The notes under the pieces are model-generated. The model did no database searches and was not told the origin of the DNA. It saw only the letters and a list, made by a program, of their open reading frames with translations. A DNA stretch of 37,528 nucleotides from assembly GCF_014196205.1 (NCBI RefSeq), contig NZ_JACIDE010000030.1, positions 1 to 37,528 of the forward strand, read 5' to 3'. Both the position numbers and the translations under genes were made by a program. Of the stretch, positions 1 to 29,299 are shown piece by piece. The stretch's first letter is position 1, and the number at the start of each line of letters is the position of its first letter. The stretch comes from Anoxybacteroides voinovskiense. Lineage in GTDB: Bacteria > Bacillota > Bacilli > Bacillales > Anoxybacillaceae.

Positions 1-92
<92 letters not shown>

Positions 93-1022: not shown

Positions 1023-1039
1023 GTGGTAACTTCATTACA

Positions 1040-1113
1040 TTCCCTCATATAATCTTGGGAATATGGCCCAAAAGTTTCTACCCAATAACCGTAAATTATT
1101 GGACTATGAGGGA
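1040..1113 (+). promoter_or_regulatory. Purine riboswitch, guanine/hypoxanthine class (pur operon)
   Basis: All conserved parts of the purine aptamer are present: P1 TCCCTCATA/TATGAGGGA, junction TATAATC, loop L2 with ATATGG, GTTTCTACC, loop L3 CCGTAAA, and GACTATG in J3/1. The specificity base in GACTATG is C, which marks guanine/hypoxanthine binding; adenine switches carry GATTATG. Ligand binding would stabilise P1 and let the terminator at 1158-1206 form. Confidence 0.95.
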
Positions 1114-1157
1114 AAGGATCGGAACGGCTTTTTTTGCCATTCTATGGCCGAGGTATG

Positions 1158-1234: not shown

Positions 1235-1723
1235 ATGCAACCACTTGTCGGGATAATTATGGGAAGTCAATCGGATTGGGATACGATGAAATATGCCTGT
1301 GACATACTAACAGAGTTGGAAATACCGTTTGAAAAAAAAGTTGTTTCTGCTCATCGGACGCCTGACTACATGTTTGCATATGCCGAAACAGCCGAAGAAC
1401 GAGGAATTAAAGTCATTATTGCTGGCGCTGGAGGAGCTGCACATTTGCCGGGAATGGTGGCGGCGAAAACAACGCTTCCGGTTATCGGGGTGCCGGTACA
1501 GTCGAAAGCGTTGAATGGGCTCGACTCGCTTTTATCGATTGTTCAAATGCCAGGCGGCGTACCGGTGGCAACGGTAGCGATCGGCAAAGCGGGAGCTACG
1601 AATGCTGGGCTTTTAGCAGCCGCCATTCTTGGAACGTACGAACCGAAATATATGGAAGCATTAAAAAAGCGAAGAGAACGTATTCGCCAAGACGTATTAG
1701 AAAGTAGTGATCAGCTTGAGTAA
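1235..1723 (+). CDS. purE: N5-carboxyaminoimidazole ribonucleotide mutase PurE
   Basis: PurE moves the carboxylate of N5-CAIR to C4, giving CAIR, the step after PurK in purine synthesis. The 162-residue length is that of class I PurE. The phosphate/substrate loop [10 protein letters not shown] lies at residues 9-18 and the catalytic SAHRTP at 38-43. The start at 1235 follows GGGGTGAA at a suitable distance and gives the normal N-terminus [11 protein letters not shown]. This is the first gene of the operon, directly after the attenuator. Its 3' end overlaps the purK start, which suggests translational coupling. Confidence 0.97.
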
Positions 1724-14534: not shown

Positions 14535-14579
14535 TTGTGAAAATGACTTTAATGCGGTAAAATGGTTACATGGTACAAT
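14535..14579 (+). promoter_or_regulatory. Candidate promoter(s) for yerA
   Basis: TTGTGA (14535-14540), 17 bp, then TAAAAT (14558-14563) is a good sigma-A match. A second possibility is an extended -10, TGGTACAAT, at 14571-14579. Either would give a short leader before the ATG at 14607. Confidence 0.55.
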
Positions 14580-14606
14580 TTAGGAAACAAAGGAACGGGG
14601 ATGGAC

Positions 14607-16346
14607 ATGGCAGAACAACGATACCGCTGGAGTAGCGAGCAGCTTCGCGAGCAATTGGCGATTATCGATGGAAAACGATCGCCGGAGAAAGTGCTGACGA
14701 ACGCTACTTATTTGCACACTTATTTGCACCAATGGAAAAAAGGGAACATTTGGATTGATCAAGACCGCATCGTGTATGTTGGCGAGCGGCTACCGAGCAA
14801 GCTAGAACAGTGCGAAGTGATCGATTGCAGCGGCTATTATTTAGTCCCAGGGTATATCGAGCCACATGCGCATCCATTTCAGTTATATAATCCCCAGACG
14901 TTTGCGGAATATGCAGCCAAATGGGGAACGACGACCATCATTAATGACAACTTAATGCTGGTATTACAATTGTCTAAAAAGAAAGCGTTTTCTTTTTTGC
15001 GCGCTGCTGAATCGTTTCCAGTGACGATGTATTGGTGGTGTCGTTTTGATGGACAAACCGAACTAGAAAACGAGGAAGAGAAGTTTTCGTATGCGGCAAT
15101 AAAAGAATGGTTACGACAAAAAACGGTTGTGCAAGGAGGCGAGTTGACCGGATGGCCACGGCTTCTTGCTGGTGATGATGCGATGCTTTATTGGATTCAA
15201 GAAGCAAAGCAAATGAAAAAACAAATCGAAGGCCATTTTCCTGGCGCTTCGGAGAAAACGCTTACAAAGATGATGCTTATCGGTGCGGACTGCGACCATG
15301 AGGCGATGACAGGAAAAGAAGTGTATGAACGGCTATTGCACGGATATACGGTGTCGCTTCGCTACTCGTCGATTCGCCCAGACTTGCCGGTGTTGTTGGA
15401 AGAAATGAAAGCGTTAGGTATTGGGCAATACGACCGCTTGATTTTTACGACGGACGGCTCAACCCCATCGTTTTACGAACATGGGATCATTGATCAAATG
15501 ATTCGCCTTGCGATAGAAAAAGGGGTGCCAATTATCGACGCTTACCAAATGGCGACAGTGAACGTCGCACGCCATTATCAGATGGAGCATTTGCACGGTT
15601 CAATTACAACAGGACGGATTGCCCATATTAACTTTTTACAGGCGCCAGATGACCCGACACCGGTTAGCGTGCTAGCGAAAGGGCAGTGGGTGAAACGGGA
15701 TGGTTATTCGAAAGCGGTTTCTTCTCTCGACTGGGGAGCGTTTGGCATGGCGCCACTTCGCCTAACGTGGCAGCTTTCGCTTGATGATTTGCAGTTTTCG
15801 ATGCCGTTAGGAATGTATATGGAAAACTCCGTCATTATGCGCCCGTACTCTATTTCCATTGATACATCGCACGACGAATTATCGACTGCCCATGATGAAA
15901 GCTTTTTCATGCTTGTCGATCGAAACGGAAAATGGCGAGTGAATACGGTCGTGAAAGGGTTCGCAACGCACGTGAAAGGGCTTGCTAGTTCCTACTCGAA
16001 TACGGGTGATTTATTGATCATTGGAAAAAGTAAACGCGATATGTTGCTGGCGTTCCAGCGCATGAACGAAATTGGTGGAGGCATTGTGCTTGTGGAAGAC
16101 GGGGAAGTCATTCATGAAATTCCGCTACCGCTTGGCGGGGTGATGTCGACGAAACCGGTCGAAGAACTGATGATGGAAGAAAAACGATTGAAAACGATGT
16201 TAGCCGAAAGAGGGTACCGTTTTGCCGATCCGGTGTATTCGCTTTTGTTTTTCCAATCGACGCATTTGCCGTATATTCGTATTACGCCAAAAGGAATTTA
16301 TGATGTCATGAACAAAACAATACTCTTTCCGTCGATAATGCGTTAA
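14607..16346 (+). CDS. yerA: Adenine-deaminase-like amidohydrolase YerA
   Basis: This 579-residue amidohydrolase-superfamily protein resembles B. subtilis YerA throughout (MAEQRYRWSSEQLRE; QLYNPQTFAEYA; GHFPGASEKTL). Metal ligands are expected at H87 and H89 in IEPHAHPF, in GHFPGAS, in CDHEAMTG and in FTTDGSTPSF. The ATG at 14607 matches the family N-terminus; an in-frame ATG at 14601 is also possible after GGAACGGGG. The protein is related to adenine deaminase AdeC, which is encoded separately at 27426-29138. Sequence alone does not show whether YerA deaminates adenine, so its substrate is open. The location between the purine operon and yerB-yerC is conserved in Bacillus. Confidence 0.88.
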   Translation: MAEQRYRWSSEQLREQLAIIDGKRSPEKVLTNATYLHTYLHQWKKGNIWIDQDRIVYVGERLPSKLEQCEVIDCSGYYLVPGYIEPHAHPFQLYNPQTFAEYAAKWGTTTIINDNLMLVLQLSKKKAFSFLRAAESFPVTMYWWCRFDGQTELENEEEKFSYAAIKEWLRQKTVVQGGELTGWPRLLAGDDAMLYWIQEAKQMKKQIEGHFPGASEKTLTKMMLIGADCDHEAMTGKEVYERLLHGYTVSLRYSSIRPDLPVLLEEMKALGIGQYDRLIFTTDGSTPSFYEHGIIDQMIRLAIEKGVPIIDAYQMATVNVARHYQMEHLHGSITTGRIAHINFLQAPDDPTPVSVLAKGQWVKRDGYSKAVSSLDWGAFGMAPLRLTWQLSLDDLQFSMPLGMYMENSVIMRPYSISIDTSHDELSTAHDESFFMLVDRNGKWRVNTVVKGFATHVKGLASSYSNTGDLLIIGKSKRDMLLAFQRMNEIGGGIVLVEDGEVIHEIPLPLGGVMSTKPVEELMMEEKRLKTMLAERGYRFADPVYSLLFFQSTHLPYIRITPKGIYDVMNKTILFPSIMR

Positions 16347-25638: not shown

Positions 25639-26382
25639 TTGAGTACAAACATGTACGGATTAAAAAAGCAAACATTTTATAACCTCATTTGTGTGTTTCA
25701 AAATTATGCGAACATCATTGAAAAAGTGATTTTGTTCGGATCAAGGGCAAGAGGCGATTATAAAGAAACGTCGGACATCGATATTGCGATTAAGTTTAGA
25801 AGCCATAACGACCAGCTGTACCGCATTCAAGACGATTTAGCAGAAGCAAATATCATTTATACGGTGGATGCTATTGATTATGAAAAGATCAGCAATGAAA
25901 AACTCAAATCGTATATTGATCTCGAAGGAAAGACAATTTTTTTAACGAATGAACGAGGCGAGACAATTGTGACGATGAATAAAATTATTGATAAACGATT
26001 TGACTTTGAAAAAGCATTAAATAAACTACATCAAAGCATTACGCGTGATGTGGAAAAAGACGACCTAGTTCTTGACGCGACAATTCAACGATTTGAATTT
26101 ACGTACGAACTAGCATGGAAATGGATGAAAAGCTACTTAGAATATAACGGAAACAATGAAGTGACAAGTCCGCGAAAAAAGATTAAACAAGCATTTAAAG
26201 AAGGACTTATTCAAGATGGAGAAGCGTGGATTCAAATGTTAGAAGATCGAAATAGGACATCACATACATACGATGAACAAATAGCGATGGAAATTTATGA
26301 ACATGTTCGCCAGCGCTATGTTCATTTATTTGATCAGTTATTAGTAGAGATGAAAAAACGAGTTTCTGAATTAGAAGAATAG
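25639..26382 (+). CDS. Fused MntA-like nucleotidyltransferase and HepT/HI0074-like HEPN protein
   Basis: One uninterrupted frame of 247 residues carries two domains usually encoded by adjacent genes. Residues about 12-105 form a minimal nucleotidyltransferase with the GSX10DXD motif (G34, S35, D46, D48) and a likely third acidic residue, D77. Residues about 118-240 match the nucleotidyltransferase substrate-binding/HEPN family of HI0074. They contain R204-x4-H209-x-Y211 (RNRTSHTY), the motif of HepT ribonuclease toxins, in which MntA adenylylates the tyrosine. The start is TTG at 25639 after GTGGGTGGTGATG. An ATG at codon 113 sits at the domain border and could be an internal start. A toxin-antitoxin or defence role is inferred, not shown. 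A small membrane protein gene follows. Confidence 0.85.
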   Translation: MSTNMYGLKKQTFYNLICVFQNYANIIEKVILFGSRARGDYKETSDIDIAIKFRSHNDQLYRIQDDLAEANIIYTVDAIDYEKISNEKLKSYIDLEGKTIFLTNERGETIVTMNKIIDKRFDFEKALNKLHQSITRDVEKDDLVLDATIQRFEFTYELAWKWMKSYLEYNGNNEVTSPRKKIKQAFKEGLIQDGEAWIQMLEDRNRTSHTYDEQIAMEIYEHVRQRYVHLFDQLLVEMKKRVSELEE

Positions 26383-26810: not shown

Positions 26811-26841
26811 TTCATAGAGAGGGAAATGCCCTCTCTATGAA
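26811..26841. terminator. Hairpin between convergent genes (possible bidirectional terminator)
   Basis: A 13-bp perfect stem (26811-26823 with 26829-26841, CATAGAGAGGG/CCCTCTCTATG core) has a 5-nt loop. It lies between the rightward membrane-protein gene and the leftward coiled-coil gene and overlaps the coiled-coil stop region. T tracts are weak on both sides. I see no gene in 26712-26810. Confidence 0.6.
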
Positions 26842-27356
26842 AACAACCGATTTCTCATTTTGAAAAGTTCGCGTTCCGTCATCGTTGTTTTATGAACGGT
26901 GAAATCAACGTCAAGTTGGAGGTTGTTAAGACGTTCGTTGAATTGTTCGTAGTGGGAGTCAATTTTTTCGTTTAGTGCGTGGATTTCTTGCTTCATTGCT
27001 GTCATCTCACCGCGCATATGATGGACGTCCATCGTTAAAGCTTCCAGTTTTGCATCCGTTTCGTCTTGACGATGGAGAAGAGCGTTCATAAGATCGTAAA
27101 GCTCTTTTTGTCCATTTTTTAATGCTTGTTGCTCTTCGCGAATGAACTGTTGCTCTTTGCGGAATGCATTCATTTCCTCCCGCAACGAGTTTATTTCTTC
27201 GCGGAATGTTTTCTGCTCTTCGCGAATAGCCATTTGTTCTTCGCGGATGGCACGTTGTTCCTCACGAATGGCTTTTTGCTCTTCACGAATGTCCTGCAAC
27301 TCTTTTTGGATGTCTGTGACGACGAGTAAAATTTTCTCCAATAATTGCTCGCTCAT
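26835..27356 (-). CDS. Heptad-repeat coiled-coil protein, unknown function
   Basis: The 173-residue protein is almost entirely predicted helix. After MSEQLLEKILLVVTDIQKEL, residues about 23-78 consist of near-exact seven-residue units of the form IREEQKA. A second coiled-coil (about 95-150) of lower regularity follows, with a basic end, MRNRLFS. There is no signal peptide and no membrane span, so it should be cytoplasmic. The start at 27356 has AAAGGAGGTGAG directly upstream; nine more codons are open upstream but lack a site. A perfect extended -10 precedes the gene. No enzyme motif is visible. The partner and role are unknown. Confidence 0.78.
   Translation of the reverse strand: MSEQLLEKILLVVTDIQKELQDIREEQKAIREEQRAIREEQMAIREEQKTFREEINSLREEMNAFRKEQQFIREEQQALKNGQKELYDLMNALLHRQDETDAKLEALTMDVHHMRGEMTAMKQEIHALNEKIDSHYEQFNERLNNLQLDVDFTVHKTTMTERELFKMRNRLFS
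27123..27290 (-). repeat. 21-bp tandem coding repeats (heptads)
   Basis: About eight units of 21 bp, each encoding a variant of I-R-E-E-Q-x-A, lie in the coiled-coil gene. Units differ mostly at the sixth codon and by synonymous changes. Expansion and contraction by slippage are likely. Confidence 0.8.
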
Positions 27357-27383
27357 CTTCTCACCTCCTTTGCACACAACCAT

Positions 27384-29138: not shown

Positions 29139-29185
29139 TGCTGTTCCTCCTCTTTTTCCACTCGATACGAGGAGCATCCCTCGTA
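29139..29185 (-). promoter_or_regulatory. SD-sequestering expression platform of the adeC riboswitch
   Basis: Three mutually exclusive pairings can be read. TACGAGG (29185-29179), whose first six bases form the 3' strand of P1, can instead pair with CCTCGTA (29172-29166). When P1 holds that strand, CTCCTC (29174-29169) is free to pair with GAGGAG (29152-29147) of the ribosome site. No T tract lies between aptamer and ATG, so a transcription terminator is unlikely. Ligand should therefore turn translation off. Confidence 0.7.
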
Positions 29186-29248
29186 GTCAAACGATTTACG
29201 GTCGTTTGGTAGATACTTTCGGACCATATTCCCGAAATTATACGAGTT
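29178..29248 (-). promoter_or_regulatory. Purine riboswitch aptamer, guanine/hypoxanthine class (adeC)
   Basis: On the minus strand P1 CTCGTA (29246-29241) pairs with TACGAG (29185-29180). Between them are TATAATT, the L2 element AATATGG, GTATCTACC, P3 AAACGA/TCGTTT and the L3 element CCGTAAA, then GACTACG. The J3/1 base is C, as in guanine/hypoxanthine binders. One departure from the usual core is GTATCTACC in place of GTTTCTACC. Hypoxanthine is the product of AdeC, so product feedback is plausible. Confidence 0.93.
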
Positions 29249-29270
29249 GGTTGTGAACGAAATTTTTTTC

Positions 29271-29299
29271 ATTGTATGCCTATATGAGCATTTCGTCAA
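29271..29299 (-). promoter_or_regulatory. Sigma-A promoter of adeC
   Basis: On the minus strand TTGACG (29299-29294), 17 bp, TACAAT (29276-29271). Transcription would begin near 29264, giving a leader of about 126 nt with the aptamer close to its 5' end. No PurBox pair is seen here. Confidence 0.8.

Follow-up and report, generated by a model that had tools for sequence, protein, structure and literature searches.

Background

The guanine riboswitches of Bacillus subtilis (xpt-pbuX, pbuG, pur and yxjA; RF00167) are described, in the part of PMC9495366 available to us, as OFF switches with a three-way-junction aptamer, a guanine-type cytosine and a downstream purine gene, in which the 3' strand of the P1 stem is taken by an alternative helix when the ligand is absent. 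These switches are transcriptional, as are four guanine switches of C. difficile, also OFF switches (PMC11477304, consulted in part), and transcription attenuation is dominant in Firmicutes (PMC2258182, in part). A purine aptamer controls ribosome access in the add adenine riboswitch of Vibrio vulnificus, which responds to adenine and whose ligand opens the Shine-Dalgarno (SD) sequence (PMC10907184, in part); PMC2258182 cites a title in which the add gene is called adenosine deaminase. In the translational OFF scheme of Barrick and Breaker (2007), as given in the same part of PMC2258182, the ligand breaks a mutually exclusive antisequestor and the sequestor forms; these authors also pointed out that other riboswitch classes have 3' ends resembling ribosome binding sites.

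The leader of adeC (adenine deaminase) in Anoxybacteroides voinovskiense shares the aptamer, the guanine-type cytosine, the downstream purine gene and the predicted OFF polarity with the B. subtilis switches, but no terminator was found and the strand freed by the ligand is predicted to pair with the SD. It resembles the add riboswitch in that a purine aptamer would control ribosome access, although it has the guanine-type cytosine and the ligand is predicted to close the SD rather than to open it. The predicted structures depart from the scheme of Barrick and Breaker in that each P1 strand takes a new partner and the P1 3' strand is itself SD-like. The kind of switch is known; what is unusual is the predicted rewiring of both strands of the sensor stem.

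No translational OFF guanine switch was described in the parts seen of PMC2258182, PMC10907184, PMC9495366, PMC9495176, PMC11477304, PMC9295807 and PMC3766115, and the word deaminase was absent from the main texts, in the form available, of PMC9295807 and PMC3766115. Searches of open-access literature listed no title or abstract dealing with adeC or with a guanine switch of the translational OFF type; subscription journals lie mostly outside that literature, and earlier reports may exist.

Anatomy of the adeC leader

The window, the whole stretch of 37,528 nucleotides that was analyzed (contig NZ_JACIDE010000030.1), carries adeC on the reverse strand behind a purine aptamer (Table 1). The RF00167 match was complete (aptamer positions 1-102 of 102), and UAUAA, AUAUGG, UCUACC, CCGUAAA and GACUA were all present in the Rfam alignment; J2/3 departed from the Rfam consensus at one base (GUAUCUAC instead of GUUUCUAC). 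The ligand-pairing position is a cytosine, which defines the guanine class (PMC11477304, in the part consulted). The adeC leader is probably a guanine-class purine riboswitch, with guanine or hypoxanthine as the ligand, in agreement with an earlier sequence-only reading of this DNA that had recognized a full aptamer with the guanine-type base.

Table 1. Features of the adeC leader and of the pur operon leader in the window
Feature	Position	Strand	Basis or remark
adeC, adenine deaminase, 570 aa	27426..29138	-	TIGR01178, 678.1 bits (cut-off 472.5)
Promoter-like TTGACG-17-TACAAT	29271..29299	-	Pattern match 10/12
Purine aptamer, RF00167	29164..29265	-	85.6 bits (gathering 37), E 2.7e-14
P1 5' strand, CTCGTA	29241..29246	-	Sequence and fold
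P1 5' strand, extended, CCAACTCG	to 29250	-	Also 5' strand of the alternative helix P1*
Junction J2/3, GTATCTAC	29209..29216	-	Rfam alignment
Guanine-type specificity C in GACTACG	29186	-	Position 74 in the usual numbering
P1 3' strand, TACGAG, with SD-like end	29180..29185	-	Sequence, folds, transcript-length series
Partners of the P1 3' strand	P1 5' strand (ligand-bound) or 29166-29172 (ligand-free)	-	Predicted
Anti-P1 hairpin, TACGAGG/CCTCGTA, putative ligand-free antisequestor	29166..29185	-	Transcript-length folds, conservation
Second CTCGTA copy	29171-29166	-	Sequence
Anti-SD strand, CTCCTC	29169..29174	-	Pairs with GAGGAG when P1 is locked (fold)
P1* 3' strand, CGAGTGG, putative ligand-free partner of the P1 5' strand	29158..29164	-	MFE, duplex scores, variants
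SD of adeC, GAGGAGG	29146..29152	-	Sequence and spacing
adeC start codon, ATG	29138-29136	-	Sequence
pur operon purine aptamer	1025-1126		Terminator-like hairpin at 1176-1201

The same reading had mapped two copies of CTCGTA, CTCCTC and GAGGAG, and all of these were located at the positions given; the TACGAG strand that it named lies at 29185-29180. Its SD spacing of seven nucleotides applies to GGAGG (29150-29146), counted to the A of the ATG, while GAGGAG itself (29152-29147) is 8 nt away and the ATG lies just beyond the span that had been considered. The distance from P1 to the start codon is 41 nt. An upstream adeC start at ATG 29177, given in the list of open reading frames and lying inside the expression platform, was rejected in favor of 29138, because the SD fits 29138 and an ATG at the equivalent position occurs in only one of 14 relatives (L005), several others carrying TTG.

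The promoter-like sequence matches the pattern at 10 of 12 positions, a quality of which shuffled sequences contain 0.9 on average, so that about one would arise by chance in a region of this size. TACAAT or TAGAAT followed by GAAAAAAATTT was found upstream of the leader in 13 of the 14 relatives, an A replacing that G in L096, and transcription would be expected to start near 29264. The absence of a terminator noted in the sequence-only reading was upheld, with no terminator-like site between 29050 and 29400 and nothing found when a hidden one was sought; a terminator-like hairpin was likewise flagged in none of 12 leaders of the Anoxybacillus group.

Predicted folding and access to the Shine-Dalgarno sequence

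The unconstrained leader folded without P1, the anti-P1 hairpin being closed by the pairing of CCAACTCG with CGAGTGG, whereas CUCCUC paired with GAGGAG when P1 was enforced. The proposals that the two CTCGTA copies vie for TACGAG and that CTCCTC pairs with GAGGAG when P1 wins were thus reproduced by the folds, in which P1 and the anti-P1 hairpin are mutually exclusive and the SD is buried once P1 is locked. At 37 C, GGAGG was fully open with a probability of 0.15-0.86 in the 12 distinct Anoxybacillus-group leaders when P1 was left unlocked, and of no more than 0.0004 when it was locked; the corresponding values at 60 C were 0.40-0.94 and no more than 0.0112. Locking P1 cost 0.95-4.0 kcal/mol at 37 C and decreased SD opening in all 12 leaders, at least 600-fold at 37 C and at least 70-fold at 60 C. 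Folding with and without the P1 constraint gives, as a prediction, the ligand-OFF polarity that had been suggested.

When the linker between P1 and the SD was replaced by dinucleotide shuffles (500 per run), the real open/closed contrast was matched by 0-2 of 500 in each of eight runs (four leaders, two temperatures), and for the window leader by 0 at 37 C and 1 at 60 C. The minimum free energy of the whole leader was ordinary (z -1.32). With the predicted 5' end at 29264 included, the 5' tail paired weakly with the SD region, and unlocked SD opening dropped to 0.007-0.028 (37 C) and 0.11-0.21 (60 C), compared to 0.00003-0.00007 and 0.0033-0.0045 in the locked state, which is about 30 to 800 times lower. 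The contrast thus persists, but how high the ON level is in absolute terms varies with where transcription starts.

In a growing transcript at 37 C, P1 had a probability of 0.90 until the end reached 29170, and the anti-P1 hairpin had one of 0.95 at 29166. Since P1 yields to the hairpin by 29166, the time for sensing before the swap would be short, although the small energy gap would also permit later re-equilibration. A gap of 2 kcal/mol, combined with aptamer affinities of about 5 nM for guanine and 100 nM for hypoxanthine (PMC9495366, in the part seen), would place the half-response near 0.15 micromolar guanine and 3 micromolar hypoxanthine.

A predicted second strand exchange

The competition among three strands that the sequence-only reading had described is recovered in the exchange of P1, anti-P1 and SD pairings; it did not include P1*, in which the P1 5' strand pairs anew with 29164-29158. 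At 37 C the probability of P1* was 0.64-0.95 in 11 of the 12 Anoxybacillus-group leaders and 0.01 in L009, where the helix is nearly absent.

How well the P1 5' region can pair with the linker was scored against mononucleotide shuffles (300 each). Five Halobacillus leaders gave z values of -1.9 to -2.5 and two Clostridium leaders (L032 and L037) -5.6 and -4.1. A P1*-type duplex scored -0.8 to 1.4 in 16 other SD-hiding leaders, and none of 26 terminator-type leaders fell below -1.4. Halobacillus and Clostridium adeC leaders appear to have a like second swap made from other sequences. In all five Halobacillus leaders (L014, L015, L017, L018 and L019) a G.A mismatch breaks up P1 (CCUUGCGUA with UACGAG), and the mismatched G pairs with C in P1*, using a downstream ACGC...GG sequence; no other single observation speaks as strongly for selection of P1*.

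A simpler switch without any function for P1*, in which partners change only among the P1 3' strand, CUCCUC and the SD, is unlikely. In its favor, L009 is nearly devoid of P1* and yet switches in the model, CGAG may be kept for a local CUCG-UAU-CGAG hairpin, and the P1* duplex is weak in the three leaders with CGAGTGG, where it was equalled by 25 (window, z -1.6), 60 (L005, z -0.8) and 35 (L009, z -1.2) of 300 shuffles. Against this, no more than 4 of 300 shuffles matched the duplex in the nine leaders with CGAGTTG (z -2.8 to -3.6), 5-15 were as good in Halobacillus and none in Clostridium, and in 11 of 12 leaders the ligand-free probability of P1 at 37 C, initially 0.002-0.24, rose to 0.33-0.97 under a penalty on P1*. 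In the model, P1* keeps P1 open without ligand in these 11.

The four Clostridium adeC leaders (L032, L037, L043 and L047, all on the forward strand) seem to represent a different translational arrangement that includes a decoy SD. In L032 (1365-1483) and L037 the P1 5' strand fits a downstream GGAGGTTA-like sequence, and in L032 this sequence falls within a hairpin loop; formation of that hairpin would hide the SD.

Conservation of the platform in relatives

Conservation was assessed in 15 leaders: the window leader, those of 13 relatives, and the decayed one of L100. The platform helices were kept in all, with loops that vary in length (4-5 nt and 10-19 nt, the value of 10 depending on the SD register chosen). 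All six positions of CTCCTC were paired with the SD in 15 of 15 leaders, and each of the seven pairs of the anti-P1 hairpin was kept in 14 or 15; L094, registered without gaps, has one broken pair in P1 and one in the anti-P1 hairpin, and L100 is broken at the optional outer anti-P1 pair. The P1* 3' strand was CGAGTTG in 12 of the 15. Within P1*, the third pair was broken in three leaders, among them the window, whose fold regains the pairing through a bulge; the outermost position was unpaired in 12.

The sequence-only reading had looked to covariation of CTCCTC with GAGGAG; among these close leaders the pairing is retained, but its changes are one-sided, to G-U, two of them hinging on which of two SD registers is used (L010 and L119). 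No two-sided change was found at any pair of P1, anti-P1, P1* or the SD helix in the 15 leaders. Halobacillus leaders form their platform from different sequences. Because the SD is fixed by the ribosome, one-sided changes in its helix were counted neither for nor against the pairing. L100, from the same genus (1341-1449, forward strand), keeps the platform with a shortened P2 and an altered P3 and scores 38.3 bits to our own model R1; it is apparently a riboswitch losing its sensor.

Distribution of SD-hiding and terminator-type leaders

An aptamer was found in the adeC leader of 29 of 80 named AdeC loci, which were kept from 283 found and scanned with Rfam (52) or with R1 (28). AdeC exceeded the cut-off in 25 of 41 genomes of the window's family. 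In 14 of these 25, adeC was immediately preceded by an RF00167 match (85-94 bits); one had the decayed aptamer of L100, and ten gave no R1 match. At the level of the order, adeC loci were found in 229 of 397 genomes, and 75 of the 130 loci examined had an aptamer in a non-random sample (30 loci plus 100 chosen rows) that favors close AdeC relatives.

These 75 were classed, partly by eye, as 28 SD-hiding leaders without a terminator, 36 of terminator type and 11 unclear. A terminator was accepted by eye in L126, L143, L152, L153 and L157, which were unflagged, and also in L213, while L175, L187 and L203 were flagged and placed in the SD-hiding group. The unclear leaders comprise five that were flagged (L206, L211, L218, L227 and L238), five that were not (L155, L179, L186, L224 and L240) and L239, which has no assigned start. 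The 28 SD-hiding leaders span five family labels (f1, 7; f7, 3; f20, 7; f44, 10; f22, 1), of which f7 and f22 also contain terminator types. In f44, one pair of the SD hairpin differs on both sides, C-G being replaced by U-A: L136 and L142 have CTTTATT/AATAAAGG-like strands, and the six others aligned have CTTCATT/AATGAGAGG. Putative SD-hiding adeC guanine switches are not rare and recur in other Bacillales families.

The CTCCTC strand, to which the sequence-only reading had drawn attention, does fit both P1 and the SD but is not diagnostic. Of 41 leaders in which a terminator-like hairpin was flagged, 34 showed a similar double fit sharing at least 4 nt when P1 was disfavored by an energy penalty; the 41 include four Halobacillus leaders read as translational. 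A strand that pairs with the P1 3' strand also fits the SD because the P1 3' strand ends in a GAGG-like sequence. The ratio of open to closed SD, scored in 91 distinct leaders (L043, L047 and L213 having no usable P1 run), was rejected as a classifier, 39 of the same 41 leaders having positive log ratios. The contrast in SD pairing was larger in the 12 Anoxybacillus-group leaders than in 37 of terminator type (Mann-Whitney p 3e-6 at 37 C), and it failed to separate the 26 SD-hiding leaders outside that group from the same 37 (p 0.91 at 37 C, 0.94 at 60 C). For these 26, the absent terminator and the visible SD hairpin suggest a translational output.

In Halobacillus the anti-P1 hairpin was flagged as terminator-like in four of five leaders. 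It was read as an antisequestor because its T run varies (TTGTTTTCT, TTAATATCT, TTGATTTCT and TTCATTTAT), and it may be a weak terminator of opposite polarity. Other Bacillales have the same aptamer before adeC, but with a terminator, and the OFF polarity proposed here fits that arrangement.

Other purine aptamers and neighboring features

Four purine aptamers were found in the genome, ahead of the pur operon, adeC and two genes that we take, from the downstream sequence, to be guaA and a purine-permease-like gene. The pur operon aptamer in the window is followed by a terminator-like hairpin (Table 1), as anticipated by the sequence-only reading, which had set a transcriptional pur switch beside the one on adeC. 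The guaA leader was considered as an ON switch and rejected; a second hairpin and T tract follow, as judged by eye in 18 relatives, so that it is an ordinary OFF switch. The guaA aptamer (L002, 1430-1602, reverse strand, own genome C34) is followed by an antiterminator hairpin and then a T run of its own, which is present in this genome and in 9 of the 18 relatives, absent from the other nine, and odd on an antiterminator.

The window holds two ade-like genes. The second encodes an adenine-deaminase-family protein (14562-16346, forward strand; TIGR01178 217.3 bits, below the cut-off of 472.5), presumably YerA-like, located after the pur operon. At 25639-26382 (forward strand), one open reading frame contains both an MntA-like nucleotidyltransferase part (residues 27-124, below cut-off) and a HI0074-type substrate-binding part (residues 122-238); such parts are usually separate genes. 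Downstream of adeC, an open reading frame of 182 aa (26835-27383, reverse strand) has weak SMC-like matches, all below cut-off. On the strand opposite to adeC, a c-di-AMP riboswitch lies upstream of the gene in Jeotgalibacillus (L044, L049, L051 and L053, reverse strand) and a T-box in Evansella (L074, 1090-1300, reverse strand). Since the window starts inside a 5S rRNA gene (1-92, forward strand), the contig probably broke at an rRNA operon.

Discussion

The adeC leader has the anatomy of a purine riboswitch with a platform conserved among relatives, has no detectable terminator and is predicted to be bistable. With a probability of roughly 0.78, we consider it a guanine-class riboswitch that turns adeC translation OFF and in which both P1 strands swap partner. 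In the absence of ligand, both P1 strands would part once the transcript passes 29166. The P1 3' strand, as TACGAGG, would form the hairpin with CCTCGTA and the P1 5' strand, CCAACTCG, would pair with CGAGTGG, tying up CUCCUC, leaving the SD freer and allowing adeC to be translated. If guanine or hypoxanthine binds first, P1 would stay shut and the released CUCCUC would pair with GAGGAG, blocking ribosomes. The identity of the ligand, the polarity in the cell and an output in translation rather than transcription are each probable on the present evidence.

The same aptamer and OFF polarity could act mainly on the level of the mRNA, with SD pairing as the trigger for RNase cutting or a Rho stop. 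An intrinsic terminator was not found, so any effect on the mRNA would require such factors, and translational switches are linked with Rho in a review (PMC10907184, in part), but nothing pointing to RNase or Rho was noticed on reading the sequence and we regard this mode of action as quite improbable. That the aptamer is a decaying relic on a constitutive leader is very improbable; L100 and the ten family genomes with AdeC but no aptamer match would be in its favor, but the aptamer in the window scores well above the gathering threshold with its loop and junction residues in place, and strong matches precede adeC in 14 of 25 family genomes. A ligand-ON switch, in which P1 formation exposes the SD, is hardly credible. 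The full predicted 5' end does leave the SD mostly closed in the unlocked state, but P1 locking lowered SD opening in all 12 leaders.

Returning to a translational OFF switch with two strand swaps, the adeC guanine switches may tentatively be seen as a natural series, a doubtful but possible reading in which aptamer and OFF polarity are fixed, the output shifts between transcription and translation, and the translational form gained a second swap in at least three lineages (the Anoxybacillus group, Halobacillus and Clostridium). Because the P1 3' strand resembles an SD, the antiterminator strand would already be an anti-SD, and loss of the terminator would leave a working translational switch; in the second swap, the P1 5' strand would move to a copy of its partner lying downstream.

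The leader is compact and its predicted energy gap is about 1-4 kcal/mol, which would suit it well to a test of whether translational switches operate close to equilibrium, and the mixed outputs on one gene across Bacillales make the evolution of expression platforms testable. For the organism, the proposed switch would lower the deamination of adenine when its product class is abundant.
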